Source of the DNA: a virus
IMG/VR virus record: IMGVR_UViG_3300008448_000145
Coordinates: 1-48,576 of that record
Reading direction: 5' to 3' (one strand)
DNA length: 48,576 nucleotides
The translations under genes and the position numbers were made by a program. Shown here piece by piece: positions 5,582 through 45,874 of this stretch (position 1 is its first letter; every line of letters starts with the position of its first letter). The notes under the pieces are model-generated. The model ran no database searches, was not told the DNA's origin, and saw only the letters and a program-made list of their open reading frames with translations.

Positions 5582-8431
5582 ATGGACACGTTGAATTTTC
5601 TTCAGCGGGTTCTACCGTCGGCAGGTTTCTATGTCACCACAGTCATCAACCCAGATGGCAGACGCCAAGGATTCTTTGCTACAGTAGAAGAACTCGCAAA
5701 AGCAGTGACTGGTCTTGACCAGCGCGGCAACAACACATACTTCGCCATCTCGGCGTTCGTCGAGAAGGGGAATAGAAAACAGGAGAACGTCCGGGCGACC
5801 AAGGTGATCGCACTGGATGTCGATTGTGGAGACGGCAAACCGTACCCTACGTGGAGGGAAGGACTGGCTGCAACAGGTCGGTTCATTCAGCAGATGGGGC
5901 TACCCAAACCGCTGATCATCCACTCGGGCAACGGGCTGCACGTTTACTGGGTGCTGACCGAGGAGCTTGAACCGTTGCGGTGGAAGCCGCTGGCTGAGGC
6001 CATGAAGGCTGCTGCCAAGGACAAGGGCTTCGAGATTGACCCGGCTGTACCCGCCGACTCGGCGCGGGTGCTGCGCCCCGTAGGAACCACCAACCCCAAG
6101 AGCGGCACTCAGGTGCGGATGCTCATTGACGCCCAGCCTGCGGTAGTCGAGCAGTTGGCTGCTTGCCTGTCGGCGTACATGGTGGCTCATCCTGTGAGCC
6201 AGTCACGTTCAACATCCAGCAGTCCGTTGGCACAAGCGTTGCAGGTACAGCAGGACTTCCCTCCGGCCAACGCAACCGTGATCGCCACCAAGTGCCAGCA
6301 GATCGGCTGGGCGGCGAAGAATCAAGGCGATGTAGAGGAACCCTTTTGGTACGCCATGATCGGTGTGGCTGCACACTGCCAAGACCCAGAGGCCACGGCC
6401 ATATCGTGGTCAGATCAGCACCCCGGATACAACGCCAGCGAGACGCTGCGCAAGCTATCACATTGGAAAACGGCAACGACAGGCCCGTCGACCTGCAAGA
6501 AGTTTGAGGAGCTTCGGCCTGCTGGCTGCAAGGGTTGCAAGTTCAAAGACAAGGTGGGCACCCCGGCCCGACTCGGTATCCAGTACCTCGAAGTCGCGCC
6601 ATCGACCACCGCCCCCGACACCACAGCGCATGATGTCCCACTGCCCCGCCCGTTCAAGCGCACTGCTGACGGCATCAAGATGACCGTGGACGAGACAGAC
6701 ATCGACGTGTGCAAGTTCGACATCTACCCCGTGGGCTACGGCAAGGACGAGTCGCTCGGCTACGAGACGGTGCGCTTCCACTGGAACCGCCCGCACCTTG
6801 GGTGGCAAGAACTTGTGATGCGCCAAGCCCTGCTGACCGAGGGCCACCGCGATTTCGCCACGGTGCTTGCCGACCAAGGCATCGTTCTTCTCAACCGTAA
6901 CCAAACAGGATATTTCCAGATCATGCTGCGCTCATATATGGACGAGTTGCGGCAGAAACGTGCGATGACAAACCTGTACGCCACGATGGGTTGGAAGGAA
7001 AACTTCTCCCAGTTTGTCATCGGGGACACGGTTCTGCGTCGCAACACTGATGGCTCCGTCAGTGAAGAATCAATCGCTCTGGCCTCCGGCTCTGCTCGGC
7101 TGGGCCATGAACTCTGGCACACCGCTGGGTCGAAGGACGCATGGGTGAACTTCACCGCGCTGCTCGACAAGGCCGACCTCCGAGCGCACATGTTCGCGCT
7201 GGCAGTGGGCTTCTCCGGCCCGCTGTATGCGTTCACTGGCCTCAAGGGTTTGACCGTCTCGCTCTACGGCCCGACAGGTGGCGGCAAGTCACTGGCCCAG
7301 ATGTGGATTCAGTCCATCTATGGCAACCCCGACAAGCTGCACTTCGCTGCCAAGTTCACCCAGAACTCGCTGTTCGGTCGCATGGGTCTGTACTCCCACA
7401 TGCCCATGACCATCGACGAAGTGACCATGATGGACAACAAGGAGGTGGGCGACTTTGCGTACTGGGTGAGTCAGGGCCGAGACAAGGCCCGCATGAACCG
7501 CAACGCTGAGGAGCGTGACGCCAAGACGTGGGCGATGCCGGTCATCGTATCCACCAACAAGTCCATGAACTCCAAGCTGATTGCCAGTGGTCTGGATACC
7601 GACGCGCAGTTGGCCCGTATCCTCGAAGTCAGCGTACCACCAAGCAAGCTGTTCACCAAGGACAGTACGGCTGGCCGCAAAATCTATGAGTTCATCAACG
7701 CCAACTACGGCCACGTCGGTCGTGAGTTCATCAAGCGGCTGCTGGAGTTAGGCGAGACAGGCATCCGCGCCGCCATTGCGCAGGCCACCGAGGACTTCCG
7801 GGGTAAATACAAGGCGCAGTTCTCTGGTGAGGAACGCTTCTGGGAACAGTCCATCATCCTCGCTGATCTGGCCGCACGGCTGGCAAAAGAGTGGGGCTTG
7901 ATTGCATACGACCACAAGGACGGGATCGAGTGGGTGCTGGCGCAGGTGGGTGCCATCCGCCGTGCTGTGTCCGAGTTCAAGATTGATGCATTCGACCTGC
8001 TGACCGAGTACCTCAACGAGAACTCCGATGCCACGCTGACAGTTACCCAGACGGGAACCAACAAGCCAATGGTGGACTTCAGTCGTGTGCCTCGCGGTGA
8101 ACTGCGGGTGCGCTTCGAGATGTACCGCAAGACAAACGGCGACGTGTTCTCACATGGCACTGTGATGCTTGACCGCACCCACTTCCGTCGTTGGCTGGCG
8201 CAGCGCGGCGCAGACTACAAGACGTTCATGGGTGAGATGCAGGACGAGAGCGTGATCGCCACACCGAAGTCCAACAAGGCGTACCTCGGCAAAGACTCAC
8301 CGATCAAGCTGGGCCAGTCCTATGTGATCGGCGTGAACCTCACGCATCCACGGTTGCAGGGTATCCTGAGTGACGCAGACCAAGCCATCGAAGACATGGC
8401 CTACGGTCAACTCAAGATGATCACTCCGTAA
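5582..8431 (+). CDS. Primase-helicase fusion (949 aa)
   Basis: The N-terminal part looks like a RepB/archaeo-eukaryotic type primase: DVDCG (D79, D81), SGNGLHVYW (H120), then DSARVLRP (D159, R162, R165). A Cys-containing GCKGCKF segment follows, then a DUF927-like helicase ATPase with P-loop GPTGGGKS (residues 563-570) and MTIDEV as Walker B (D612, E613). Such fusions make primers and unwind DNA at the phage fork. ATG 5582 follows an AGGGGC ribosome site; the longer GTG start at 5540 has none and would add a low-quality extension. The stop overlaps the convergent giant virion gene by 11 bases. Confidence 0.88.
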   Translation: MDTLNFLQRVLPSAGFYVTTVINPDGRRQGFFATVEELAKAVTGLDQRGNNTYFAISAFVEKGNRKQENVRATKVIALDVDCGDGKPYPTWREGLAATGRFIQQMGLPKPLIIHSGNGLHVYWVLTEELEPLRWKPLAEAMKAAAKDKGFEIDPAVPADSARVLRPVGTTNPKSGTQVRMLIDAQPAVVEQLAACLSAYMVAHPVSQSRSTSSSPLAQALQVQQDFPPANATVIATKCQQIGWAAKNQGDVEEPFWYAMIGVAAHCQDPEATAISWSDQHPGYNASETLRKLSHWKTATTGPSTCKKFEELRPAGCKGCKFKDKVGTPARLGIQYLEVAPSTTAPDTTAHDVPLPRPFKRTADGIKMTVDETDIDVCKFDIYPVGYGKDESLGYETVRFHWNRPHLGWQELVMRQALLTEGHRDFATVLADQGIVLLNRNQTGYFQIMLRSYMDELRQKRAMTNLYATMGWKENFSQFVIGDTVLRRNTDGSVSEESIALASGSARLGHELWHTAGSKDAWVNFTALLDKADLRAHMFALAVGFSGPLYAFTGLKGLTVSLYGPTGGGKSLAQMWIQSIYGNPDKLHFAAKFTQNSLFGRMGLYSHMPMTIDEVTMMDNKEVGDFAYWVSQGRDKARMNRNAEERDAKTWAMPVIVSTNKSMNSKLIASGLDTDAQLARILEVSVPPSKLFTKDSTAGRKIYEFINANYGHVGREFIKRLLELGETGIRAAIAQATEDFRGKYKAQFSGEERFWEQSIILADLAARLAKEWGLIAYDHKDGIEWVLAQVGAIRRAVSEFKIDAFDLLTEYLNENSDATLTVTQTGTNKPMVDFSRVPRGELRVRFEMYRKTNGDVFSHGTVMLDRTHFRRWLAQRGADYKTFMGEMQDESVIATPKSNKAYLGKDSPIKLGQSYVIGVNLTHPRLQGILSDADQAIEDMAYGQLKMITP

Positions 8432-11400
8432 CGCCGTACAGTTCGAGGATACGCTCAGTCTCAGGCCGCATCGTTCTTGGTGCGGCCTTCAGGTACCGCT
8501 CAGTTGCCGTGCGTTGTGCTTCACGCAGCGCACGGTTGGCCGAACCCTCGAAGCTGCGAATCTCAAGGCCAGTACCCTTGGCTGCATCGTTCCAGTCCTT
8601 GACCATCTGCAACACTTCGCGGGCACGGTCATTGTCCTTGGCGATCTTGGCGCTGACATACAACCCACGATACGTTGCAGCGACATCCTTCTGGTAGTCG
8701 CCGATCCGCTTGGACATCCGCACCACGTCGTTCTCTGCCACAGCGGAGGCTGGGTAGAAGCCCAGCGCACGGGTGAGCATGGTGCCCAGATGTAGATCGT
8801 TGCTGACCACGAAGCCCTTCTGACTGATGATGGCACCTGCATTGTTGTATGCCACCATGTCTCCCAGCGCACGGAGCATGGCAACTGGCGACTCACGGGC
8901 GATCTTGTTGAGCGAAGTCTTGTCGTCCAGAACCCCGACAGTCTCCAGTCCATAGCGGGCCATGTCTGCCGACATTGCCACAGCACCTTGCAGGAAGGAT
9001 GCCACCGGGCCAGCGATCTCGATCAGTTCACGCCCCACATCTGCACCAGCCAGTGCGATGCCAGTGCCGGGGATGATGTTGGACAGGGACACACGGTCGG
9101 CCACGTTGGCAGGCGTGATGGTGTTGAGCAGGCCACGCATCAAGATGGGTGTCATGCCGGGAGCGATGGCGTCCACAGCTTCGGCCAGCGTCTTCTCGGC
9201 GCTGCCCTTCCAGATTTTGTTCGGGCCAAGCCCAAGTGCCTGCGCGATGGTGTCGATGATGTCCATCAAGTCTTCGGCAAATGGCAGACCCTTCAGACCA
9301 GCGAACATGGCGAGGATACCTAGCGCCAGCAGTTGCTCCTTGCGGGGCAGCGCGGCCAGCATCTGGATGCTGTTGACCGGGAACATCTTGAACATGAACA
9401 GGAACTGGCGCACGTCGCCACGGAACATGGCGGGCCGGTTGTACATGGCGTACTCACCGAGCGTGTTGTCGATCATGTCCACAGCAGCTTTGTCAGCCAC
9501 CTCGAAAGCTGTTGCGGCGTCCTTGCCTTCGGCCAGAGCGCGTGCGTAGGCCATGCGGAACGCAGCCAAACCTGTTGCACGGCGGCTGTGCTGCTCGGTG
9601 TAGTTGAACAGCGACATCCATGTCTCTGCCGCAGCCTTCGTGGCACCAGAGCGGAACTTGCCTCGGGCAGAACCCAGCAACGAGTTGGTCAGCGCAGCCT
9701 GCATGGTGCCGCCGCCGACTTCCTTCTGCATGAAGCGGGCTTCAGCAACAGTGAATCCTGCGGCCTTAGCTTTGTCTTCGATCTCCTTGTCGGTTCCAGT
9801 CAGGATGTCATCCCAGAACTTCACGTCGCTCTGACCGAAGCCCTTCGTGGCGTTGATGGCGCGACTGATTTCTACCGATGACATGCCCCAGCCGAAGCCG
9901 CCACCGAAGGCGTTCTTCTGGTTGTACCCGGAGAACGCAGGCAGCACGTTGGTTGCCAGCGCAAGATAGTTCAGGATGGCCGTGGCAAACGACGCGCCCA
10001 TGAACGCGAAAGTTGTTGCAGTGCGGATGGTGGACGCTGCTTCACCAGAGGCGAAGTCGGTGTAGTCCACGTTGGACTGGGATTCCATGAAGGCCACGGC
10101 GCGACGACCACGATCCTTGAAGCGGTTGCCCATGACCGGCGATTCCTTGGTCACGAACGTGTAGTGGTAGTCATCGAACTCCCGCTTGGCCGCAAACTTC
10201 GGGGCCTCGGGCGTAGTCGGGTCTTTCTCGGCAGCTTCCCACGCAGCCTTGCGGCGGTCGTACTCACCCTTGTCGCCGAACCACAAGCGGATGGAGTCTG
10301 GGTCAGCGTCGTCGAACAAGCGGTCGAGGCGGTGGCGGTTCTGCTTGCGTGCCACAGTCGATGCGGTTGACTCAAGATGTTGCGACACGTACTTGATGGT
10401 GTTCGGGTCTTCACCGGGAGTGCCCGCCCGCTTCAGGCGGGTACGCGCCTTGGCGTTCTGCTGGGTCATGCCCACGATCAGACGCTCACGTTCCTCTGGC
10501 GTGATGCTGATGGAGAAGCGAGTGATCGCGGAGATGATCTCGTTGAGGTTGGCCTCTGCCGTGGTAGAGACTGTTTCACGGGATGTCTCAGGCTGTGCAA
10601 CAAGTTTGACTTTCCTGATCACAAACTCTGTGCCGTCCAGCACTTCCATTTCAAAGCCGTCCTTCACATCGTCGAACAGTCCTTGGATGCGCTCGGCCAT
10701 CGCCTCAGCTTCGGCGCGGTTCTCCACCTGCGAGAACAGAAGCTGCTGGCGGTACTGCTCCGACACCTTGAAGATGCGGCCAGTGCGTGGATCAACAGCT
10801 TGGATGCGCACCTGCCACGAACCCTCACGACCGAACGGCACGTAGCCACCAGCGATGGATCGCTTGGCAAGCAGTTCAGCATCGGTCTTGCTCAACTCAA
10901 ACAGGGCCAAGTTCTGGATGGCTTGCTGGATGGCGAAGCGGTCAGGGCCAGAGCGCGGGATGTTGGAGTCCTTCTTCAGCGCCTCGATACCGGCGAACAC
11001 GTCGTCGGCCTGCGCTTTATCGAAGAACGCCTGCACGTCTGCATTGCGGTCGGTGTCGCGGCCCAGCACAGCGGCGTTGAACTTCTTGATGAAGTCGTTG
11101 GCAGCGGCCACGGACTCACGCTTGGTCATCATCACGCCACTGGCGTCAATGCTGGAGCCTTCGGCGCGGAGCGACAGGTACTTGTCTTCGACGGTCTTGA
11201 GGAACGACCTGTCGTTCTCAGTCAGGGCACGGTCGAGGAACCGTTGCACAACACGCTCTACGTTGTCGCGCTCACCCTTGGCCGCAGCAAAGTTTGCCAG
11301 CAGCATGTCGGTGGCCGACTTGTTCATGGTGTCGCGCACCTCGTTGTACATGATCCACTCAGGACTCTGGTCGGTCAGATCGGGCATGGCCGGGTAGGAC

Positions 11401-14400
11401 TGCTCAACATCGACAAGCATACTGGGTGCGTCGAGGCGCTTCTGGTACTCACGCTCGATGGCCTTGCGCTCTTTGTCGTTGGCAGCGGTGTCGAGTTCCA
11501 GATCACGCTCGGCCCGGATCGCTGCACGGCGCTCCTCGGTCATGGGGCGCGGCACACTGATGGTGTACTTGATGCCCTTCTTGAAGTCGTCCAGCGTGAA
11601 CTTGCCACGGGCTGCAAGGATGTCATACACCTCTTGGTTCAGGCGGGCTTCGCCACCCTCGATGGTGATCAGGCTACCCATCTTGCGCAGTTCAGCTTCG
11701 GTCAAGTCGCCCAGCTTCACACGGCTGGTGACGTTGAGCATGGCCGACGTGCTGGCAATCTGCGCCTCGGACGCGCCCTGTGTGAACCCGCGACCCAGCA
11801 CCTCTACGGCGGGGGACAGCACGGTATCCATCATCTTGTTGTACTGCGCACGCAGTTGCGCTGCGGTCTTGCTGGTATCGCGGAAGATGTCGTACAAGCG
11901 GCGGTAGCCTTGGTTCTCACGCGAGGCGTAGTTCATCGACTTGAGTTCGCCGATCAGGCGGTTGGTGTAGTCGCCGATGTTGACGCCGCGATCCTTGGCC
12001 TGCTGGAACAGGCTGGTGATGTCGAACAACTTGGTGCTGCGCTGGCCGAAGGCATCCATTGCGGCCACTCGGTTCTGCTCGTCGTAGTACTCACCGGCCA
12101 AAGCGAAGCGGCCAGAGCCGTCCGGGTCGTTGATGCCTTCGATTGCAGCCATGCGCTGGGCCATCGCCTTGAAGTCCATGAACGTGCCACTTGTTGTGCC
12201 GTTGCGCACGTAGCGGCGGGACTGGCTGACCAGATAGCGGGCAGTGTCATCGTCGAAGCGCACCCCGATCTTGTTCAGGGCGTTCTTGATGGCGTTCCAG
12301 AACCGGGCGATGATGTTGGTGTCCAGCATCCCGGCGAAGTCAGCGAGGTATTCCTCAGTGGCCTCTTGGCGCGACATCTTGCGGGCCTGCATGGCAGTGT
12401 CCACAGCAGCCTTGACCTTGGCACTGGAGTTGTACACCGCATCGAGGGCGGCGTTCAGTTCCTTCGCAGTCAACAGACCACGGAAGCCGAAGTGCCCCAG
12501 CGTCTCGTGCGCCAACACAAACTTCAGTTGCTGCTCAGTGGCAACCCGGTCAGCGAAGATGATGACGTTGCCATCACCGAACGAGTAACCTACGGCATTG
12601 GCCGTGTCGAAGTCGCCTTGCGGGCGAGACGCCACTGCCTGCGCATACAGCGTGGGGTTCTTGGCCTTGAAGTCCGCTTGGTTGCGGTAGACCTGCACTT
12701 TGGGTTTGATGCCCAGCTTGGACAGGAACGCACTGACCAACATCTTCACACGTCCCAGCGGGATTGGATTGTTGACCGGCGTGCCGTCGTCGCGGAAGTA
12801 GCGGCCATCGCTGAAGTCGTCAGCGCGGCCAATGTTGAAGTCGTCCAAAGAGAATGGCGCTTCATAGTCGTCGTCGGTCGGGATGTTGTCCTCGTCGATG
12901 ATCCTCTCGCGCTCGGCCTGCACGTCAGCAGTGATCTCCTCAGTCCCCACGCGGTACATGCCCTTGACGGTGCCCACGAACGGACTGCCATCTTCGTCGA
13001 AGTAGTCAGCCAGCATGTTGCCGTTCTGGTCAACGAACAGTTCCATACCTGCGGCGCGGGCAGCAGCCCACAGATCACGCAACTTCTTGGTGGCGTTCTC
13101 GCGCTGGGTCTTGTTCAGCGGAACCGTCTTGGTATTCAGTTCCTTGATGTAGTCGGACAGCGCCGTGGCGGCGTTGGAGCGGGTGTCGTTCTTTATGTTG
13201 GCACCGGCTTTGCCGATGATGCCACTGACTGGGCCGACGCTGGCCTTGTACTTCTTGACCGTATCGGCAGGCAGGTTGGCGACGCGCAGTTGGCCGGAGT
13301 CCAACATCTTGGTGGCCGCATCGACCGACAAACCTTTGACCACGGTGGTGATCTGGGGCAGCAGACCACGCTGGACAGCGTAATCAAACCACGGCTTGGA
13401 GTCGCCCTTGGTAGTGCCACGGGTGTAGACCGCCTCAACAGATGGCAGCGTGTTGACCAGTTCGAGCATCGCAGCGTCGATGGCGTTTTGCTGGGCGTCG
13501 GTGAACGACGTGTTCGCCAGCAGTTCGCGGGCACGCACGACTGCGGCCTTGGTGTTGGTTTCTTCGCTGGTGAAGTAGGCGAACTCAACCACGGTGCCGA
13601 TGGCATCGCGGAAGTCACGGATGTCGGTGGCCGACTCAGCCGAAGCGAACTCACTGTTGACCAGTTGCAGTGGGGTTTCTTCCACATCCCCAAGGATTTC
13701 CTCGGCCCGCTGCATGGTGGCCTTGCCAGCGTCCACATCCTGACGCCACTGGGTGCGCACAGGTGCGGGCAGATCGTCAAACGCCGGAGCGCCCTCGGGC
13801 TTCATGTCCTCCCACGCTTCGGCGGGAGGAAGGGCTTCAACCTTTACCGGAGCGGGGACGGCGGCGATTGCCGCCACGGCTTTTGGGGGCGTGGGTGCCT
13901 CCTTTTTCAGCGTCTTTTTTGCTGGTACAGAGGGTCTTTGCTTTTTGTCTTTGGCTTTGAGGGCTTCACCTTTTGCGGCAGCTTCTCGTTTGGTGGATAC
14001 TTCTGCTCCCACTCCTTCGCCAGCTTTGGGTTGTTGGCGTGTAGGTACCGGCGCTGGGCCTCGCTTTTGAACGGCACTTGGAGTCTCCTTGACTTCGACC
14101 GCGGCGACACCGGCCTGCTTTTTCAGACCGCGCTGGGTACGGGGTTTGGATACCGGCGCTTTGGGCGCAGCCGGAGCGGGCTTGACTGTTTCCTTACGAC
14201 CAGCAGACCTGAGCGCAGCCATCGAGGGCTGACCCTCTTGTGTAATCAGCGGCAACTGGGCGCGGCGCTGGGCGGCAGTCTGTGGAATCGCAACTGTAGC
14301 TGCGGGTAAACCCGTACCCACACCACGGCGCAGACCTTCGGCACGGCTGGGCACCGGAGCCTGACGGCGGTTGAACAGGTCAAGTTGTACAGGCTGGGTC

Positions 14401-16418
14401 GGGCCAGCTTGGCGCATGGGTAGCGTCGGCTGCACGGCAGCAGCTTGCTGTGCCTGTTGCATTGCATACAGGTCGCGGGCGTTTGCGCTCTGCTGCGCGA
14501 GTGCCTCAGTCTGTTGCTGGATCACTGCCGCTTGCTGGGCCTGCGCTGCCTCGAACTCGCGCTGACGGCGGATGCGGTCTTGAATGGCCTGCAACTGGTT
14601 CTGCATCTGCGTGTTGGCAGGTGCAACGGGCGCTTCGCCAGCGAACTGGAGCGCACCTTGGGCCGGATTGACCACGGGCACTTGGGCCGGGGCAGGCAGT
14701 CCGGGCAGCGGTTGCTGCGGCTGCATCCGGGTCGCCAATTCTTGGGCAGAGATTTGTCCACCGAAGATGTCCAGCACACCCTGAGTACCGGGGCCACCGG
14801 GAGGGACGTTGCCCTGCTGGCGCAGCATCTGGTCTTGGTAGGCTACAGCGTTCGGCCCCATGCCAGCCATGATGACTGGGCCACCCATCGGAGTGACGGG
14901 CGGGACAGGGCCGGGAAGCCCCAGCGCGGCAGGGCCACCCAGTTGGAGCGGAGCGCCAGCGCCGGGTGCGCCACCCATCGGGGTGACAGGGGTGTAGTAC
15001 GGAGCCACGCCCGTGCCGGGGCCGGGAGGTTGTGTCGGCGGGACTGTTGCCAGCGCACCGCCAGTGGGGGCAGGGTCAGGATTCTGGGCAGCGTTGAGCA
15101 GGTTGGCGGGCTGCTTGCCACGGAGGTTGGCAACAGCACCAATAGGGCCACCGACACCGAAGCCAGCGGCGAACGAGTTGATCAGCCGGTTGACGTTCTC
15201 AGGGGAGCCAAAGTCTTGGTCGGACAGTTGCAGCAACAGGGCTTCCTGCCCCAGTTCTGTGGCACCCTCAGCCGTACCGCCGATGGCGAAACCAGTTGCG
15301 CCGCGCTTGAGCAGTTCCAAACCACGACGGCTAGGGGAAACCCCTACACCCATTGGAGTCGGAGCACCCACGCCCTTGAACACACGACCAGCCAGCAGGA
15401 ACTCGGGCAGCGTCTCCATCAAGGCGTAGGGAACTGACCCGGCCAGCGCCGTCAGGCGGGCGTTCGTGTCTTCAGCGTCAGCGCCTTGCTCACGCAGTTC
15501 GCCGTAGATGTCAGCCGCACCCGTGGCAAGGTTCTGCCCATAGGACGCAGCCACAGCACCAGCGATACCGGCTGCTTCGCGCAGCAGTTTCTGTTCTGCG
15601 ACGTTGAGCGCCTCGCCCTTGGCCTGCTTGGACAGCGCAGACTTGACACCCTCTTTCCATGCAGCTTTACCCAGCAGGCTGGAGAACGCAGCGGCTGCGC
15701 CACCCACCGGAGTGCCAGAGGCAGCAGTGCCCGCGAGGAAACCCAGTCCAGCCGTGGCGATGGACTCGATCATGTTCGGCCCTTGCTGGGCGAAGTTGGC
15801 TACGAACCACTCAACGGCACCGCGACCCGACTCGATGTCAGTGAACTGGCGCTCATAGGGGGTTGTCCTGCGCAGGTCTTCCATCTGCTGTTCGACGATG
15901 CGACCACCAGTCTCCTCGGCACCGGCAAGCTGCAAGGCGCGGCCAGCCAGCATCTGCGTGACATCGACACCGCGCCCGAAGTTGCGTGCAGCCAGTGTGC
16001 CCAGCGAGGGGTTGCGCACGTTCTGAACCAGTTGCCCGTAGGACTGTGGGTCAAGCGGCATCCAGTCTCCGTCTGTGGGTAAACCCGTCGATGGGCCACC
16101 GAGCAGACCCTCGGCCTGCAACAACGACTGCGCGTCATCACTGGAGAACGTGGTGCCTTGGACGAAGAACTCTTTGCGCGATGGGCTGTAGCCAATGGAC
16201 GGTGGCTGCTTCATCTCCGGCATCGTGAACTGGTTCTGCCGTGCCGCCATGACACCCTTGGCACCCATGATAGCGAGGCTAGAGAGGTCGTCGCGCAGCG
16301 CATCAGAACCTGACGACGCTGCTGCGTTTTGAAATCCAAACGGATTTACGACCGCAGACGGAACCCCGTTTGCGTCCTGATAAAGAGGGTTTTCAAACGA
16401 GAGTCCCTTGGTCGCCAT
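8421..16418 (-). CDS. Giant internal virion / polyvalent protein (2665 aa)
   Basis: One uninterrupted frame of 2665 residues, the last gene of the late cluster. Visible parts: hydrophobic Gly/Ala-rich segments at about 213-250 and 276-313; a long disordered region rich in Pro, Gln and Ala at about 440-900; an alpha/beta region with HETLGH at 1304-1309, a zinc-metalloprotease-like HExxxH; extended helical regions; and hydrophobic stretches at about 2133-2176 and 2362-2395 near the C-terminus. Phage proteins of this size at the end of the internal-virion block are usually packed in the capsid and ejected with the DNA. The C-terminal part resembles large polyvalent proteins, which carry several effector domains. 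Enzyme activity is inferred from one motif and is unproven. Confidence 0.85.
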   Translation of the reverse strand: MATKGLSFENPLYQDANGVPSAVVNPFGFQNAAASSGSDALRDDLSSLAIMGAKGVMAARQNQFTMPEMKQPPSIGYSPSRKEFFVQGTTFSSDDAQSLLQAEGLLGGPSTGLPTDGDWMPLDPQSYGQLVQNVRNPSLGTLAARNFGRGVDVTQMLAGRALQLAGAEETGGRIVEQQMEDLRRTTPYERQFTDIESGRGAVEWFVANFAQQGPNMIESIATAGLGFLAGTAASGTPVGGAAAAFSSLLGKAAWKEGVKSALSKQAKGEALNVAEQKLLREAAGIAGAVAASYGQNLATGAADIYGELREQGADAEDTNARLTALAGSVPYALMETLPEFLLAGRVFKGVGAPTPMGVGVSPSRRGLELLKRGATGFAIGGTAEGATELGQEALLLQLSDQDFGSPENVNRLINSFAAGFGVGGPIGAVANLRGKQPANLLNAAQNPDPAPTGGALATVPPTQPPGPGTGVAPYYTPVTPMGGAPGAGAPLQLGGPAALGLPGPVPPVTPMGGPVIMAGMGPNAVAYQDQMLRQQGNVPPGGPGTQGVLDIFGGQISAQELATRMQPQQPLPGLPAPAQVPVVNPAQGALQFAGEAPVAPANTQMQNQLQAIQDRIRRQREFEAAQAQQAAVIQQQTEALAQQSANARDLYAMQQAQQAAAVQPTLPMRQAGPTQPVQLDLFNRRQAPVPSRAEGLRRGVGTGLPAATVAIPQTAAQRRAQLPLITQEGQPSMAALRSAGRKETVKPAPAAPKAPVSKPRTQRGLKKQAGVAAVEVKETPSAVQKRGPAPVPTRQQPKAGEGVGAEVSTKREAAAKGEALKAKDKKQRPSVPAKKTLKKEAPTPPKAVAAIAAVPAPVKVEALPPAEAWEDMKPEGAPAFDDLPAPVRTQWRQDVDAGKATMQRAEEILGDVEETPLQLVNSEFASAESATDIRDFRDAIGTVVEFAYFTSEETNTKAAVVRARELLANTSFTDAQQNAIDAAMLELVNTLPSVEAVYTRGTTKGDSKPWFDYAVQRGLLPQITTVVKGLSVDAATKMLDSGQLRVANLPADTVKKYKASVGPVSGIIGKAGANIKNDTRSNAATALSDYIKELNTKTVPLNKTQRENATKKLRDLWAAARAAGMELFVDQNGNMLADYFDEDGSPFVGTVKGMYRVGTEEITADVQAERERIIDEDNIPTDDDYEAPFSLDDFNIGRADDFSDGRYFRDDGTPVNNPIPLGRVKMLVSAFLSKLGIKPKVQVYRNQADFKAKNPTLYAQAVASRPQGDFDTANAVGYSFGDGNVIIFADRVATEQQLKFVLAHETLGHFGFRGLLTAKELNAALDAVYNSSAKVKAAVDTAMQARKMSRQEATEEYLADFAGMLDTNIIARFWNAIKNALNKIGVRFDDDTARYLVSQSRRYVRNGTTSGTFMDFKAMAQRMAAIEGINDPDGSGRFALAGEYYDEQNRVAAMDAFGQRSTKLFDITSLFQQAKDRGVNIGDYTNRLIGELKSMNYASRENQGYRRLYDIFRDTSKTAAQLRAQYNKMMDTVLSPAVEVLGRGFTQGASEAQIASTSAMLNVTSRVKLGDLTEAELRKMGSLITIEGGEARLNQEVYDILAARGKFTLDDFKKGIKYTISVPRPMTEERRAAIRAERDLELDTAANDKERKAIEREYQKRLDAPSMLVDVEQSYPAMPDLTDQSPEWIMYNEVRDTMNKSATDMLLANFAAAKGERDNVERVVQRFLDRALTENDRSFLKTVEDKYLSLRAEGSSIDASGVMMTKRESVAAANDFIKKFNAAVLGRDTDRNADVQAFFDKAQADDVFAGIEALKKDSNIPRSGPDRFAIQQAIQNLALFELSKTDAELLAKRSIAGGYVPFGREGSWQVRIQAVDPRTGRIFKVSEQYRQQLLFSQVENRAEAEAMAERIQGLFDDVKDGFEMEVLDGTEFVIRKVKLVAQPETSRETVSTTAEANLNEIISAITRFSISITPEERERLIVGMTQQNAKARTRLKRAGTPGEDPNTIKYVSQHLESTASTVARKQNRHRLDRLFDDADPDSIRLWFGDKGEYDRRKAAWEAAEKDPTTPEAPKFAAKREFDDYHYTFVTKESPVMGNRFKDRGRRAVAFMESQSNVDYTDFASGEAASTIRTATTFAFMGASFATAILNYLALATNVLPAFSGYNQKNAFGGGFGWGMSSVEISRAINATKGFGQSDVKFWDDILTGTDKEIEDKAKAAGFTVAEARFMQKEVGGGTMQAALTNSLLGSARGKFRSGATKAAAETWMSLFNYTEQHSRRATGLAAFRMAYARALAEGKDAATAFEVADKAAVDMIDNTLGEYAMYNRPAMFRGDVRQFLFMFKMFPVNSIQMLAALPRKEQLLALGILAMFAGLKGLPFAEDLMDIIDTIAQALGLGPNKIWKGSAEKTLAEAVDAIAPGMTPILMRGLLNTITPANVADRVSLSNIIPGTGIALAGADVGRELIEIAGPVASFLQGAVAMSADMARYGLETVGVLDDKTSLNKIARESPVAMLRALGDMVAYNNAGAIISQKGFVVSNDLHLGTMLTRALGFYPASAVAENDVVRMSKRIGDYQKDVAATYRGLYVSAKIAKDNDRAREVLQMVKDWNDAAKGTGLEIRSFEGSANRALREAQRTATERYLKAAPRTMRPETERILELYGVTE

Positions 16419-37374: not shown

Positions 37375-38298
37375 TCAGAATTGCACGACGGCGGTGGACA
37401 GAGCTTCGCCTTTGACAACCTTGTAACCGTAGACCTGAAGGCCACGGACGATGTTGCCGAAGGTGGACTCGGAACGGATGGTTTCCATGTTCGTCATCTG
37501 CGACGCAAACGTGAAGCCCATCTTGTGACCGGCGATGATGTTGTACTTGCCAGAAGACACAGCAAGGTTGTGACTGACGTAGACGGTGAAGCGGTCAATC
37601 ATACCCAGACGACCGTTGCGAACGATGGACATGCTGTCGCCGGTGAGCGAAGCGTCCTTCAGTTCGGACTTCTTGATCAGACCAGCCATCTTGGCGGGGA
37701 TGACCACAAAGCGGTCGCCTTCGGGGGCGTTGGCTTCGTCCAGCACGGTGCCGAGATCGACCAACAGGTCAACAACGGAAGTGGTGCTCGATGCGCCGTC
37801 CTTGGTCACGGTCAGCGGAGCGCCGGTCGTACCGAGGTTGAACGAGGCAGACTGCTCACCAGCAGTAGCGCCCTTGTTGGTAGAGGCAATACCGGGCAGG
37901 ATGTCGGTCAACACGCGCTGGTCGATCTTGATCTTCATACGCTCGGAAGCGTCTTTCGTCCAAGTATCCATCAGGTTGATGTCCGACTGAACCTTGTCCA
38001 CATCGTCTTCAACGCAGGCAAAGTACTCGCCCTTGTCGATCAACAGTTGGATTTTTGGTTTGTCAGGATTTTCCACGGTCAGGGTTTGGCCCTTCACGTA
38101 GTCACGGATGGTGATTTCCGGCGTGGTGCGGATGTTCACGGCGTCGCCGTACTGGCGGATTTCACCTTCGTAGTCGGTGTTCGAGATCGCTGCGAGCACG
38201 GTGGCATCGTAGAAGTTCTCGATCAGTTTGCCCGACCAGATTTCGGGGATGAAGTTGCCGCTGTAATTTGGGCGACCGGGGGAGACGGGATAAGACAT
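37375..38298 (-). CDS. Major capsid protein (307 aa)
   Basis: Size, position after the scaffold gene and features such as IPEIWSGKLIENFYDATVL, then YFACVEDDVDKVQSDINLM, and GHKMGFTFASQMTNMETIRS fit an HK97-fold phage coat protein of the P22-like/environmental podovirus kind. The domain order (N-arm, E-loop region, helix-rich P domain, A domain) is consistent by eye only. It would form the icosahedral head around the scaffold. The ATG is preceded by AAAGGAG. Expected to be the most abundant protein in the particle. Confidence 0.88.
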   Translation of the reverse strand: MSYPVSPGRPNYSGNFIPEIWSGKLIENFYDATVLAAISNTDYEGEIRQYGDAVNIRTTPEITIRDYVKGQTLTVENPDKPKIQLLIDKGEYFACVEDDVDKVQSDINLMDTWTKDASERMKIKIDQRVLTDILPGIASTNKGATAGEQSASFNLGTTGAPLTVTKDGASSTTSVVDLLVDLGTVLDEANAPEGDRFVVIPAKMAGLIKKSELKDASLTGDSMSIVRNGRLGMIDRFTVYVSHNLAVSSGKYNIIAGHKMGFTFASQMTNMETIRSESTFGNIVRGLQVYGYKVVKGEALSTAVVQF

Positions 38299-39398: not shown

Positions 39399-39614
39399 TC
39401 ATAACTTTGCCGCCATAGCAGGGGTGTTTTTTGCGAACTCAATGAGTTCGACCACTATCTGGCAGCGCCCCTGAAACACTGCCGGATTGTCAATCGCGTA
39501 AGGGAGACGCTTCAACTCCTGCGCGAGCACACCTTCCATCCACACCAGAATCTCTGGGTGTTGCCGGACGGCTTGCGCCAATCCTTTGATGACTTGTGGC
39601 TCGGGCTTGATCAT
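39399..39614 (-). CDS. Small hypothetical protein (71 aa)
   Basis: A mostly helical small protein (VIKGLAQAVRQHPEILVWME, VVELIEFAKN) between portal and scaffold genes, overlapping the portal stop by four bases. Probably a head accessory factor; no family recognised. Confidence 0.6.
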   Translation of the reverse strand: MIKPEPQVIKGLAQAVRQHPEILVWMEGVLAQELKRLPYAIDNPAVFQGRCQIVVELIEFAKNTPAMAAKL

Positions 39615-41677
39615 GCCGCCATCCCACTTACACGACTCTGTACCGTGTTGGCCTCCATCCCGCCTTTGGGAGAACCGTCAGGCTGTTGCGGTGCGCCACC
39701 TTGGGGTTGCTGTGCCTGCTGCTGTGCAGCGGCCATCGCAGCCCGTGCGGTGATACGACCGGTATACCCTTCCTTCTCCCGAGACGGAACAACGTCTTCC
39801 ACGGACATTTGCAACCCTTTTGCGATCTCCCGAAGGATACTGGCACGTCCCTCCTTGCCGATGATCTCAAGATCAATCGGGTTGGCGGTTGCATTGAGAA
39901 ATTCGATGCGGCGAATGTTGACAGTCTCCTTGACCGCGAGGTTAATCGCGCCCTTGGCAAGAACTTCAACGTCGCCCTTGATGGACTCATCCTCATCGTA
40001 CCGCATGTTGTACACAAACTGGCGCAGCACAATGGGCTTCACGACATCTGTGTCAATGTGCATCACGACTTGGCGAATGCCTTTGCCTGCCGCGCCCATA
40101 AGCATGGACAGGCCGGATGAAGTACGCCCAGCGCCCTGTACGTTCAGGTCGCCATAGACGTAGGCTGGGATGCCCGAGTGGTCGTCGGCCAAGCGGCTGA
40201 ACTTCTCGTACACACCCATGAGTTCGTTCGCCCGCGAGTCGGGCTGCGTGAACCGGATGGCCGGTGCGCTCGAACCCACGGGGTCATTGATGGTCTGCCA
40301 GATTTTCCAAGGCGTCAACTGGGTGATGTCCTCGTTGGGCGGCAGGCGCTCCACGTTGACTTCGACCTGTGGGCCGCTGGAGATACCCATGTTGTTGACC
40401 AGCGCACGGGCAGCGGCGTTGCACACGCCCTGCAAGTCTTCGATGATCTCGGGTATGGCTTTGCCCCAGAACGCGCCGGGGCACTTGATGAACGAGGTCT
40501 TGGCGTAGGGCTTCTCGCCCAGCGGGTCATAGTTGAGCACCGCCTTGATGACGTAGTTGCCCACCATCCAGACATTGGCGTCGTACTCGCGGGCCTCATC
40601 GGGCACATCTTCCTCGGTCAGACCCCACTCGCGCAGCATCTTGCCGCTGACTTTGCCCCAGAATTCCAGAGCATCGAACTCGGTGGTCGGCTTCATGTAC
40701 GAGTAGTACTTGCGCTCCTCCTCGTCCTTCTGAAGCTCCACGTCCTGATTGATCCACGACTGGCCGTTGCCAATCTCCAGCACTTTGCGGATGGCGTCTT
40801 CGTCGTAGCCCGGAACGCCGATGAGGTCGGACAGTTGCATCCGGCTCAGGGGGTGGTACTCGAACAGGTAGCCTTCGTTGATCGTGCTGATCCCCGGCTC
40901 GGGGTAGATGTAGAACGGATCGACCCGCTCGTACTCCGGCCCAAGGCGCTCAATGGGTTCGACCACAGTCTGGCCCATCGCGTTGGTCTTCCAACCCAGC
41001 GCCCGCTGGCGACGCACAACCGGCCCCTTGATGAACGCCGCAGGGAACGTCACAAGGTCGGTGATGAAATCGTTGAATGATGCTTCCCAGCCGCCTTGGG
41101 CGAACTGGTCTTGAATCTTGACCTTCATTCGGTCGGCACGCATCTGTGCTTGTTGCAGGACAGCGAAGCGGAAATCTTGGCTGACCGCCTCTCGCATCTC
41201 GGCCATCTCCTCCCGGTTCGGAGCCTTGCCGTACTCCTCGACCATCTTGATCACGCGCTCGGCGAAGATGGCTTGCACGTCCTTGGTCTGCGCTGGGCTG
41301 AGGTCAGGGATGGGCGTGGCCTGCAAGTCCCACGGCGGGGAGCCATTGTCAAGCAAGATGTCCCTGAGCCAAGACTCCGCAGCGCGGCACTTGACTTCGG
41401 TGATCATCATGTAAATCTCGGAGCCGCCCTGTCCTCGAATCTGTTGCAACTTGTCTGCGTCGTACTGGCCGTTGCGCTGACGCAGCGCACGCAGCATGAT
41501 GTACTCAATGGGCTTCTTCGCCATCTGGGCAACATCCCAGCATTGGCGCAGATACCCGGCCAAGCCGAGGATGACGGGTTGATTCTGCCGCTCGGCGAGA
41601 GCGCGATCTGAAACCTCTTGCTCTTGCCGAGCAAGTTCAGAGTTTGATACCACACGCAGGAATGTCAGTCCGGCCAT
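39611..41677 (-). CDS. Portal protein (688 aa)
   Basis: The length, the helical N-terminal region (GSEIYMMITEVKCRAAESWL), the wing/stem region with YIYPEPGISTINEGYLFEYH and PAYVYGDLNVQGAGRTSSGL, and the Gln/Pro-rich C-terminal tail (QQQAQQPQGGAPQQP) fit podovirus portals that form the dodecameric DNA gateway. Position is downstream of the terminase and upstream of the scaffold. Start ATG 41677. The overall alpha/beta pattern is characteristic, though residue-level proof needs a profile search. Confidence 0.85.
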   Translation of the reverse strand: MAGLTFLRVVSNSELARQEQEVSDRALAERQNQPVILGLAGYLRQCWDVAQMAKKPIEYIMLRALRQRNGQYDADKLQQIRGQGGSEIYMMITEVKCRAAESWLRDILLDNGSPPWDLQATPIPDLSPAQTKDVQAIFAERVIKMVEEYGKAPNREEMAEMREAVSQDFRFAVLQQAQMRADRMKVKIQDQFAQGGWEASFNDFITDLVTFPAAFIKGPVVRRQRALGWKTNAMGQTVVEPIERLGPEYERVDPFYIYPEPGISTINEGYLFEYHPLSRMQLSDLIGVPGYDEDAIRKVLEIGNGQSWINQDVELQKDEEERKYYSYMKPTTEFDALEFWGKVSGKMLREWGLTEEDVPDEAREYDANVWMVGNYVIKAVLNYDPLGEKPYAKTSFIKCPGAFWGKAIPEIIEDLQGVCNAAARALVNNMGISSGPQVEVNVERLPPNEDITQLTPWKIWQTINDPVGSSAPAIRFTQPDSRANELMGVYEKFSRLADDHSGIPAYVYGDLNVQGAGRTSSGLSMLMGAAGKGIRQVVMHIDTDVVKPIVLRQFVYNMRYDEDESIKGDVEVLAKGAINLAVKETVNIRRIEFLNATANPIDLEIIGKEGRASILREIAKGLQMSVEDVVPSREKEGYTGRITARAAMAAAQQQAQQPQGGAPQQPDGSPKGGMEANTVQSRVSGMAA

Positions 41678-42147: not shown

Positions 42148-43536
42148 TCACGTCCAGCCCAGAGCGGAAGTTCTTTTGACCTCCCGCCGCTGCTGGAGCG
42201 CGTGCCCCTCGCTGGCGTGGGCGATATGCAACATCAGGTACTGGAGCGCCTCGGCCACGTGCGAGTGCTTGTTCTTGTCGATGTCGCCGTCACCCTTGGG
42301 CTTGTACCGGTACCCGCCCATCATGGCCGCTTTAAGTTGCGTGCAGCGTGGATCAACGAGGAACGCCGGGTCGCCGTCCACCTGCCGCATGAGGTACTCG
42401 TCCACGGCGTTGATACGTGCCGACACGTTGTTGGTTCTGGCCGGGATGACTTTCATCCCCTCGGCCTTGATGATGTCCACCACGCTGCGCTCGTCGGTCT
42501 GCGCCCGCTGCACACCCGCTGGGTCAACGACAACCAGCACCGGGGAGCCGGGGTACCGTTCGTACAGTAACGGCTTGAGCATGGTGCGGATGAACCGCTG
42601 GATGCCCATGTCAAACGAGACAGCCTCGTCAAGTATCAGCGCCCGCCCTCGTGGGTCTTGCTGGCCGAGCACCGCCGCTGGGGTTAACCCTAAGTCCATG
42701 CCGATGACGATGGGCCGCACCCCGTTGACGATGGCCCGCAGGCGATCTTTCGCCATGTGGTAGTCAGGCCGAAAGTACTTGTACACCGGCATACCGGCTG
42801 AACTGAGGCCGTACTCGCCGTCGATGTAAACCCGGATGTACTCCTCGCTGCGGCCTTGGGTGTCGTAGTACCCGTCCGGCAGGTTCTCAATGTTCTCGGC
42901 GTAGGGACTGCGGCCCGAGGGCTGCTTGAACACGTCCCACCCGTTGTCGTTGGGGGAGACGCCATCCTTCACGTCCAACCCCTCCATCTGGTAGTACCAC
43001 CAGCCGTCCATCGTCGGCGGGTTGGTGTCGCCCCACATGCCGTGCCATGTCGGCCCGCCGTCCTTGGCCGAGGGAAAACGTCCAATACGTTTGGACATGG
43101 CGTCCATGATGTCTGGGTGGATGTCCCGGCACTCGTTGAACCACGCGAAGGTCAACTCCAGCGAGTTCAAGTTGGCAACGTCATCGGCATCGTCCAGCGC
43201 CCGGAACATGATCTCGCACTCCACGTCGCCCACCTTGAAGAAGTAGGTCTTGGTGGTGCGCATGTACTGCCCGCACACACCCGGTGGGAACCAGTCGAGG
43301 AAGGTCTTGATCGTCGTGTCCTGCAACTGGCGGGCGGTTTCCCGCACGATGGCCGCTCGGGTCTTCCTGATCCCCTGCGCGTTGGGTTCCTGCATGGACG
43401 CCCTGCGCACGATCTCGAAGCTGGAGGTAACGGACTTGCCCGAACCCACTGGCCCCATGAGGACGCGCATCTTGGCGTCCGAGGCCATGAACTTCTTGCC
43501 CGTGGGCGGCGGCGTGTAGTTGATGTCAAGTGCCAT
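42148..43536 (-). CDS. Terminase large subunit (462 aa)
   Basis: ATPase: Walker A GPVGSGKS (28-35) with K34, Walker B-like LELTFAWFNECRD with E135. Nuclease: GMDLGLTPAAV (D281), VVVDPAG (D338) and the acidic KHSHVAEAL (H424, H426) metal site region. It is the motor that packages DNA through the portal and cuts the concatemer. The N-terminus is short for a terminase, but all core motifs are present. It overlaps the upstream gene by one base (43536), showing a packaging operon. Confidence 0.9.
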   Translation of the reverse strand: MALDINYTPPPTGKKFMASDAKMRVLMGPVGSGKSVTSSFEIVRRASMQEPNAQGIRKTRAAIVRETARQLQDTTIKTFLDWFPPGVCGQYMRTTKTYFFKVGDVECEIMFRALDDADDVANLNSLELTFAWFNECRDIHPDIMDAMSKRIGRFPSAKDGGPTWHGMWGDTNPPTMDGWWYYQMEGLDVKDGVSPNDNGWDVFKQPSGRSPYAENIENLPDGYYDTQGRSEEYIRVYIDGEYGLSSAGMPVYKYFRPDYHMAKDRLRAIVNGVRPIVIGMDLGLTPAAVLGQQDPRGRALILDEAVSFDMGIQRFIRTMLKPLLYERYPGSPVLVVVDPAGVQRAQTDERSVVDIIKAEGMKVIPARTNNVSARINAVDEYLMRQVDGDPAFLVDPRCTQLKAAMMGGYRYKPKGDGDIDKNKHSHVAEALQYLMLHIAHASEGHALQQRREVKRTSALGWT

Positions 43537-43745: not shown

Positions 43746-43945
43746 GCTGGCTCTCCCTGTACCAACGAGATCACGAACTCACGTCCGTGCTTCTTGCTGC
43801 GTGTGATCTTGGTCTGGAACGACAGGCTGGCGCGGCCCAGTGCGTTCTCTACGGCGACGGCCTCGGTGGCGGTGCGCAGTTTCACGGCGCGAAAGCCGTT
43901 GAAGTTCTGGGTGAATAGGTCTTCAATTTTCGATGGCAGTTGCAT
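43742..43945 (-). CDS. Small hypothetical protein (67 aa)
   Basis: ATG 43945 gives a 67-residue alpha/beta protein (LPSKIEDLFTQNFNGFRAVK, FVISLVQGEPA). A further in-frame ATG at 44002 would overlap small terminase by 80 bases and is less likely. Ribosome site not strong. It lies between small terminase and the Cys-rich protein. Unknown role, perhaps a terminase accessory factor. Confidence 0.5.
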   Translation of the reverse strand: MQLPSKIEDLFTQNFNGFRAVKLRTATEAVAVENALGRASLSFQTKITRSKKHGREFVISLVQGEPA

Positions 43946-44402
43946 CTTGTACGTCCACGGTGGTTGCTTCAATGGTACGGGCGTCGCGGGCGTCGCTGCC
44001 AAGGTTGATGGTGATCTTCACACCACCGGTGCCGTTGTCCTGCGGGCCAGCGTCCTTTGGCTCCAATCCGGCCCACTTCACCGTGGACTTGATCAGATCG
44101 GCCTTGACTGCGGGGGAGACTGCTGCGTCATGGATCAATAGCCACGAGGTCGTCAGCAACTCCTCGGCTTGGGCGCGGGCCTTGAGCTTGAACGTCAGCC
44201 CCTTCTCCCGAACCTCGGTGCGGTAGCCCTCCACCTTCTTGAGAAAGATGGGGTCGGCGTTGAACGTGAGGATGTCGTTGGCCGAGATGCGGTGCCGTGT
44301 GATGACCTCCTGCAAGGTATCACCACTGCCCTCAAGGGTCAGGGCTACGTCAAAGGCCAGACGGTCATTCCACTTGGTGTGATTGAGAGGTAGGTTGTCC
44401 AT
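43923..44402 (-). CDS. Terminase small subunit (159 aa)
   Basis: Position immediately upstream of the large terminase and a helix-turn-helix-like N-terminal segment (TLQEVITRHRISANDILTFN), then a helical oligomerisation region and an Asn/Asp/Thr-rich tail, match small terminases that recognise phage DNA ends. The ATG at 44402 has no upstream ribosome site; instead a -10 element lies seven bases from it, so a leaderless mRNA is likely. Assignment by context and fold. Confidence 0.75.
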   Translation of the reverse strand: MDNLPLNHTKWNDRLAFDVALTLEGSGDTLQEVITRHRISANDILTFNADPIFLKKVEGYRTEVREKGLTFKLKARAQAEELLTTSWLLIHDAAVSPAVKADLIKSTVKWAGLEPKDAGPQDNGTGGVKITINLGSDARDARTIEATTVDVQDATAIEN

Positions 44403-44439
44403 GAGCGCAATATAGCACGGGGGGTTACGGGGGTGTCAA
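44403..44439 (-). promoter_or_regulatory. Candidate sigma70 late promoter for leaderless small-terminase mRNA
   Basis: A perfect -35 TTGACA (44439 to 44434) and a -10 TATATT (44414 to 44409), spacer 19. The next six bases GCGCTC lead directly to ATG 44402, so transcription would begin at or near the A of the start codon. The spacer is longer than ideal. The -35 is part of the shared CTTGACAC motif. Confidence 0.5.
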
Positions 44440-44549
44440 GAGGTGGGGTAACTTTACACGTCCTATTTTTGGGTCTTGGTTTAAGAGGTTGCCTACAACT
44501 ACCGGGGGCCTCGCTTTTCTCAAGCCATGTACCCCCCTCCCCCTCGCGT

Positions 44550-44615
44550 CACGCACGCGCATCACGTGCGCACGCGCATCATGTGCGCACATGCGCATTA
44601 CGCGCATTATGCGCG
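44550..44615. repeat. GC-rich alternating purine-pyrimidine tract (GCGCAT repeats)
   Basis: Nearly strict alternation of purine and pyrimidine with GCGCAT at 44557-44562, 44574-44579, 44593-44598 and 44602-44607; a 17-base unit GCGCATCAnGTGCGCAC is repeated in tandem. Such tracts readily adopt left-handed Z-DNA under negative supercoiling. Confidence 0.85.
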
Positions 44616-44690
44616 AGGCAACTTGACACTTTCGGCAAGATCGGCGAGTCTGAATTTGTCGATGCAGTGATCTCGCTGCAAAGATTCAAA

Positions 44691-44702
44691 GCTCTTTAAC
44701 AA
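44691..44702 (+). promoter_or_regulatory. boxA-like antitermination element
   Basis: GCTCTTTAACAA matches the conserved boxA of ribosomal RNA leaders, where NusB and NusE bind to prevent Rho-dependent termination. It lies in the untranslated leader of the 44787 gene, the usual position for such elements. No unambiguous boxB hairpin follows. Confidence 0.65.
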
Positions 44703-44712
44703 CACATAGCAG

Positions 44713-44781
44713 TCTCCTTGCGTGATGACCTTCGTTAGAAGGTTGCATTCCGCCACCGGATGAGGGTCATCACTTAGGAGA
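44713..44781 (+). promoter_or_regulatory. Leader hairpin that can mask a Shine-Dalgarno site
   Basis: TCTCCT (44713-44718) can pair with AGGAGA (44776-44781) and GTGATGACC (44722-44730) with GGTCATCAC (44765-44773), giving about 15 pairs interrupted by a small internal loop. The loop holds 34 bases. The AGGAG at 44776-44780 is the ribosome site of ATG 44787, so folding should reduce translation. The competing small hairpin CCTTC-GTTA-GAAGG (44729-44742) could open the stem. Candidate riboregulator. Confidence 0.6.
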
Positions 44782-44786
44782 TAGCT

Positions 44787-45256: not shown

Positions 45257-45479
45257 GTCTGATGTCTCCCTCATTGGTGAGGGTAAGACCGCCACAGGTT
45301 TACAGGCTGACGAACTGCGGGGAAACTCGCTTTTTTTCTGTGTGTTACACACACCATACGTCGGGGGTTTATAGCACCAACGCTGCGGTACTGAACGACT
45401 TTACAGCGGGGGGACTAGGCTAGTTTACACTGCGCTGTAACAGTACGTGTAAAGTGTCAAGTAAGGGGTTAACCTGACA

Positions 45480-45874
45480 CAATCTAACTGTACATCCAAC
45501 AATCTATTTTTAACTCAGCACGAAATCAGTACTTTACATCAAGAAACTTTACATACTTTAAGTGTCAAGTTAGAGGGAAAGTCCAATGAAATCAACCACT
45601 TACGTGGTTTTTACCATGAGCCATGAGTCTATGAACGATATAGATGATATAGAAAAGATAGGTTTTTAACGTATACCCTTTCACAAGAAAAAGAATTCCC
45701 TCGTTTCATAATGTGGGACATAAATCTTCCAACTTTTTAGTGCGACATTACTTCCAAAAACGTAGATTGTTTAGATCGTCGCTCCTAAGTCGTTGATTTC
45801 ATTGGAATTCTGCGATCTATGAGCAATCTAACTTGACACTTATTCATAGATTGTTTACATCAATTCGTAGATTG
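45480..45874. repeat. TAGATTG repeat family, six copies in both orientations
   Basis: CAATCTA at 45480-45486 and 45500-45506 (spaced 20 bases), TAGATTG at 45763-45769, CAATCTA at 45824-45830, TAGATTG at 45847-45853 and 45868-45874 (spaced 21 bases). Several are followed by TTTA. Spacings near two helical turns suggest a protein-binding array such as iterons or operators. Confidence 0.75.
45586..45669 (+). CDS. Possible leader-type peptide ORF (27 aa)
   Basis: ATG 45586 to TAA 45667-45669 encodes an acidic peptide (SHESMNDIDDIEKIGF). Only a GAGGGA-like sequence precedes it and it contains its own hairpin (45594-45612), so translation is doubtful. Confidence 0.2.
   Translation: MKSTTYVVFTMSHESMNDIDDIEKIGF

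Follow-up and report, generated by a model that had tools for sequence, protein, structure and literature searches.

Transcription of the lambda cI gene from PRM generates a leaderless mRNA, and to our knowledge the leaderless phage mRNAs whose ends have been mapped come mostly from single regulator genes. Lambda cI is named as a leaderless mRNA in a paper that describes initiation by the 70S ribosome on a 5′-terminal AUG, with enhancement by downstream CA repeats; its authors state that, to their knowledge, leaderless translation has not been studied under the changes in initiation factors that accompany T7 infection (PMC9031893). The cI and cro mRNAs of phage PY54 are also leaderless, both ends having been mapped by RACE (PMC4488713). 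Lambda cI and PY54 cI and cro are regulators of the switch between lysogeny and lysis in temperate phages. That phage transcripts are often leaderless is remarked in passing elsewhere (PMC5312081). In Deinococcus-Thermus a TANNNT motif lying about 6-7 bp before an ORF leads to a leaderless mRNA, an arrangement reported for about a third of the genes of D. radiodurans, often without dependence on a -35 element (PMC12340547).

The locus described here resembles PY54 cI and cro in that a phage mRNA would start at its AUG, from a promoter that abuts the start codon. The type of sequence evidence, a -10 motif adjacent to an ORF, is the same as that used for Deinococcus-Thermus (PMC12340547). In contrast to the lambda and PY54 genes, it is a probable packaging gene heading a structural strand, and the arrangement, as predicted from sequence, occurs in many phage lineages. 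Unlike the situation in D. radiodurans, we are dealing with one phage gene that has a near-perfect -35 element, in a genome where the other starts are mostly led by an SD site.

The window, i.e., the whole stretch of DNA analyzed, is the IMG/VR virus record IMGVR_UViG_3300008448_000145, of 48,576 bases. Profile and annotation searches recognize structural and packaging genes between 44402 and 8421 on the minus strand, among them genes for virion and tail proteins, and helicase, exonuclease, primase-like and ATPase genes on the plus strand. The genes of the minus strand that are needed below are as follows.

43923-44402, minus strand: probable small terminase subunit (TerS), 159 amino acids; phrog_36773, fold model and structure matches
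42148-43536, minus strand: large terminase subunit (TerL); Terminase_3 and phrog_2; SD-led (GAGG)
39611-41677, minus strand: portal / head-tail adaptor, from annotation searches; same strand as TerS
37375-38298, minus strand: major head protein, from annotation searches

A gap of 384 bases (44403-44786) parts the minus-strand run from the plus-strand genes, and the gene at 44402 is therefore the first of its run. Since this gene heads the structural strand, we infer that the run from 44402 comprises the 'late' genes, and the structural run presumably forms one transcript. At its other end the structural strand carries an ORF of 2,665 amino acids (8421-16418, minus strand), which is matched, in its C-terminal part, by large PHROGs of unknown function only. 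A host call was attempted from one genome scan and abandoned; it returned two MAG contigs, from an actinobacterium and from Paraglaciecola, and neither is a safe host.

An earlier note on this DNA had reported a perfect -35 and a good -10 element next to ATG 44402, with no ribosome site before it. Both observations are borne out by the sequence, which reads on the minus strand TTGACA, 19 nt, TATATT, GCGCTC, ATG, and contains no SD-like match of at least 4 bases upstream of the start codon.

44434-44439, minus strand: -35 element TTGACA, 6/6; TTGAC is nearly invariant in 103 anchored homologous promoters
44415-44433, minus strand: 19-nt spacer with extended -10 (TG at 44417-44416; TGC at its end), from the sequence
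44409-44414, minus strand: -10 element TATATT, 5/6; its position relative to the ATG is conserved
44403-44408, minus strand: 6-nt discriminator GCGCTC with a pyrimidine at -1, from the sequence and homologues
44400-44402, minus strand: start codon ATG; transcription is placed on its A (44402) by the spacing

The combined promoter score is 11/12, and the region has the elements of a sigma-70 promoter, i.e., a -35, a -10 and a compatible spacer or extended -10. The optimum spacer is 17 nt, so that 19 nt is longer, and an extended -10 usually makes up for a poor spacer. The automatic promoter scan missed the TerS promoter because it accepts spacers of 16-18 nt only. The -10 ends 6 bp before the start codon, making the A of the ATG the seventh base after it, which is the usual position at which transcription begins. 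On mononucleotide shuffling of the family upstream regions, none of 6,200 sequences reached 11/12 with a distance of 5-8 nt from the end of the -10 to the ATG, and 39 of 6,200 reached 9/12.

A TGA within the -35 element is in frame with ATG 44402, closing the frame upstream, and the window has no ATG, GTG or TTG between the two; ATG 44402 is therefore the sole candidate start of the homologous frame. Homology among the relatives begins at residue 1 of the 159-amino-acid protein. The remark that the other genes use strong ribosome sites is correct only in part: an SD match of at least 4 bases precedes 25 of 37 ORF starts in the window, which were picked by hand with the start positions taken mechanically, some being doubtful.

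Is the gene the small terminase, as had been proposed? We consider this probable. The position argues for the assignment, since only two small ORFs separate the gene from an unambiguous TerL downstream. The model of the 159-amino-acid protein is of low confidence (pLDDT 65) and consists of a helical bundle followed by two strands. The best match in the PDB found with VIA-align was phBC6A51 (Z 7.9), followed by the TerS proteins of E217 (5.2), NV1 (4.8) and PaP3 (4.3); where about 100 residues align, the matching chain is in most cases a small terminase or the phBC6A51-type phage protein, with middling Z values. An unrelated long-helix chain scores Z 5.8 against the same model, and Foldseek returned E values of 0.36 and worse. 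The profile phrog_36773, of unknown function in PHROGs, was matched in 31 of 31 family members. The protein has no match in Pfam, and a sequence search against solved structures returned no terminase.

The register of promoter and start codon was compared across the family. Loci were gathered using as queries the TerS protein, its alignment together with two distant members, TerL and the Rollin homologue. A profile search found a family member in 312 of 318 sequences; 298 were usable and 14 were dropped, with 124 distinct upstream 37-mers. A first set of homologues, from which 13 of 150 matches had been dropped beforehand, contained 65 distinct regions, and the anchored promoter alignment took 103 of 105 rows. 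The family rows are related, and the counts that follow are not independent events.

In the first set the best promoter ends 6 nt before the ATG in 52 of the 65 distinct regions, 7 nt in 7, 8 nt in 5 and 10 nt in 1. In the full set, 92 of the 124 distinct TerS upstream regions have a promoter that scores 9/12 or more and whose -10 lies 5-8 nt from the ATG; the same test applied to starts in the same loci gave 0/104 for TerL and 0/99 for the portal gene. With the threshold lowered to 7/12 the corresponding values were 104/124, 5/104 and 4/99, and 105 of the TerS regions passed when a neighboring in-frame ATG was permitted. Scanning the 124 TerS regions one gap at a time at 9/12 or better gave 80 at a gap of 6, 10 at 7, 7 at 8 and 2 at 5; outside 5-8 there were almost no hits, the count being zero for gaps of 3, 4 and 16-25. 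SD matches of at least 4 bases at 3-11 nt show the opposite distribution, preceding 9/124 TerS, 67/104 TerL and 56/99 portal starts. The base at -1 is C or T in 116/124 TerS regions, compared with 37/104 for TerL and 33/99 for portal. Transcription characteristically starts at a pyrimidine-purine (YR) step, and the excess of pyrimidine at -1 thus points to a YR initiator at the A of the start codon. The TG of this codon is a further possible transcription start.

Among the related rows, 39 promoters have a spacer of 19 nt, and 37 of these carry an extended -10 TG; with a spacer of 15-17 nt it is present in 4 of 44. This pairing of extended -10 with long spacers is as expected of real sigma-70 promoters. 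Information content in the anchored rows declines toward background just a few bases beyond the -35 on its upstream side, indicating that there is no second in-register promoter further up. Homologues down to about 60% protein identity retain the promoter elements and their register, with turnover of the spacer and the upstream bases. On a quick tree, which omitted 9 of the 124 (eight with E above 1e-50, plus L146), the gap between -10 and ATG changed at least 16 times without leaving the range 5-8, and at least 30 changes fell on the spacer. We do not use these two counts as proof of a tighter constraint on the gap, the spacer being three times longer. The orientation of the neighbors upstream of TerS was also set aside as an indicator, since mechanical ORF calls mixed the strands and even placed an antisense ORF in the copy from the window.

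Nineteen of the 124 upstream regions fail the 7/12 test even when a neighboring in-frame ATG is permitted. Four are near-fits by eye, i.e., L266 and L271 (TTGACA-N17-TAAAAG or TAAAAC-N6-ATG), L296 (TTGCGT-N17-TACCTT-N6) and L273 (TTGACT-N17-CTAGAT-N6). For L267 and L227 the cause was not found, the start of L146 is unsure, and L152, L275-L277, L279, L314 and L317 are distant relatives. In L299-L302 and L306 the TerS start is SD-led, with the SD 4 nt before the ATG; in the marine L299, L301 and L302 a sequence resembling a promoter can be made out by eye some 20 nt above the SD. Leaders with SD sites are found in one marine lineage and in distant cultured relatives. A sigma-70-like sequence can be seen by eye upstream of the gene before TerL in Cronobacter phage Ss1 and Vibrio phage VA-RY-3, as in the window, but in these two a leader with an SD-like site lies between that sequence and the ATG. 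Pseudomonas phage Rollin, the sole match in the phage records searched and at 34% identity, also has a small gene just before TerL, but with GGAG 5 nt before its start. The SD-led state takes at least two changes on the quick tree, which gives no order of the states. These relatives offer a natural contrast with which to test what leaderless initiation gains a lytic operon.

We propose that a host-type sigma-70 promoter abuts ATG 44402 such that RNA polymerase would begin transcription at the A, give or take about 2 nt. With the promoter so placed, the probable TerS mRNA would begin with AUG, lacking both leader and SD site. The same leaderless mRNA presumably runs on through the head and tail gene strand. 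A 70S ribosome, or a complex of the 30S subunit with initiator tRNA, would bind the 5′-terminal AUG directly, and the genes further down, mostly SD-led, would initiate normally. It is highly probable that the TerS mRNA of the window and of the family is leaderless in this sense, with a leader of 0-2 nt. The earlier claim of a start on the A of ATG 44402 has strong comparative support in the register, the base at -1, the distribution of SD sites and the extended -10, the transcription start itself being deduced. The predicted arrangement is found across a large group of freshwater and marine phages.

There is a small chance that transcription starts 1-4 nt before the ATG, in which case the short stub would have no room for an SD site. 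The window has a G at -4, as do 59 of the 103 anchored rows, and in the 20 of 105 family members with a gap of 7-8 the start could lie 1-2 nt before the ATG. At a gap of 6, however, such starts would fall only 3-6 nt after the -10, nearer than is usual, and the enrichment of pyrimidine at -1 indicates the A of the ATG. We regard it as very unlikely that the TerS message comes from another, more distant upstream promoter, with a leader whose translation needs no SD and the abutting sequence serving another role or surviving as a relic. Such a promoter would have parallels by eye in Ss1, VA-RY-3 and the marine L299, L301 and L302, where an SD leader lies below promoter-like sequence; but the family has no conserved in-register element further up, and the register with the ATG, the compensation between spacer and extended -10, and the bias at -1 would be left unexplained. 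Chance or shared ancestry, by which a promoter happened to end at the ATG in a common ancestor and nothing is said about leaderless translation, seems extremely improbable. The rows are related and a single origin of the leaderless arrangement is compatible with the tree, yet elements and register have been kept to about 60% protein identity despite the turnover of spacer and upstream bases, the spacer having changed length at least 30 times.

What would the leaderless start at ATG 44402 be for? It had been suggested that it ties the onset of packaging to changes in ribosome state. A simpler reading, which explains the data, is that promoter and start codon have been compacted and that initiation of the 70S type is tolerated. 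We think it improbable that the leaderless start has been kept for SD-free translation, the first cistron being the entry to the late operon, as part of a general phage strategy. If that were true, intact 70S ribosomes would load the TerS AUG late in infection, and would do so despite damage by host toxins or defense systems to the 3′ end of 16S rRNA or to initiation factors; AUGs abutting promoters would then be a general strategy of phages, not an oddity of repressor genes. Leaderless phage mRNAs are already known, but the case of a packaging operon appears to be new within the literature searched, in which subscription papers were scarcely covered and no title or abstract reported a leaderless terminase or late operon. 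A family of uncultured phages keeps its promoter locked to the start codon of what is probably the first packaging gene, and starts of this kind may be misplaced by gene callers for which an SD site is obligatory.

The idealized sequence TTGACA-N17-TATAAT-N6-ATG was sought in IMG/VR viral contigs and occurs in at least 132 distinct places (L324-L443 and others). We compared this N6 set with an N12 control by the make-up of the matches listed, not by totals, counting ORFs of at least 60 amino acids, or at least 30 if open-ended. Among the 132 N6 matches listed an ORF was opened in 86, a pyrimidine stood at -1 in 104 and an SD was present in 9; the values among the 118 N12 matches listed were 28, 44 and 28. 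Of the 85 proteins listed behind the gap-6 sites, 65 were scanned, the incomplete and some of the short ones being omitted; their matches include primase, exonuclease, dCMP deaminase, clamp loader, UvsY and a late-transcription coactivator, so that several belong to replication or nucleotide metabolism. In the contigs of the gap-6 set 6.8% of ORFs have TANNNT upstream at a gap of 6 (null 3.1%), to which the selected sites themselves contribute a large share. With the N6 excess and the variety of genes behind the sites, starts that abut a promoter look like a wider phage habit, which suggests that leaderless starts may be widespread in environmental phages.

The beginning of the coding sequence was also analyzed.

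44373-44399, minus strand: A/C-rich, G-poor first codons (nt 4-30), from the family composition

In the family the A+C content of nt 4-30 is 0.72 and that of G 0.12, G rising to about 0.28-0.30 further along the gene. In 98 of 105 family members the first 45 nt form a less stable fold than stretches inside the gene, and in the window the first 60 nt are without structure (z = +1.01). An AUG followed by an open, A/C-rich 5′ end fits leaderless loading, but open ends are common to many ordinary starts too and the feature is therefore a weak indicator.

The region upstream of the -35 contains a candidate regulator site.

44449-44459, minus strand: GTGTAAAGTTA, candidate regulator site upstream of the -35; motif GTGT[ACT][AT]AGTT

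The motif GTGT[ACT][AT]AGTT precedes 51 of the 99 family promoters, its distance to the -35 being 7-70 nt; reversed it is found in 2, and shuffled in 0. In the control region of the window, repeats of GTGTCAAGTT / TTGACACTT, with exact 12-nt copies, lie at 44449-44459, 44620-44632, 45451-45480, 45560-45576 and 45827-45842, and are candidates for the operator of a phage regulator. The -35 of TerS itself reads TTGACAC, which may be compared with these repeats. A 14-bp palindrome TGAC-N6-GTCA (44425-44438) overlaps the -35. GT[AC]A is conserved 11-14 bases after the start of the -35, such that TGAC-N6-GT[AC]A is present in 51 of 103 promoters, a possible operator over the -35. At one mismatch TGAC-N6-GTCA occurs 38 times in the window against 26 ± 5 expected, a modest enrichment. 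Between 44552 and 44615 a CGCACGCGCATCACGTG-like unit is present in three imperfect, near-tandem copies, and a 24-nt inverted repeat (45579-45602 and 45786-45809) has arms that are 92% complementary and 183 nt apart.
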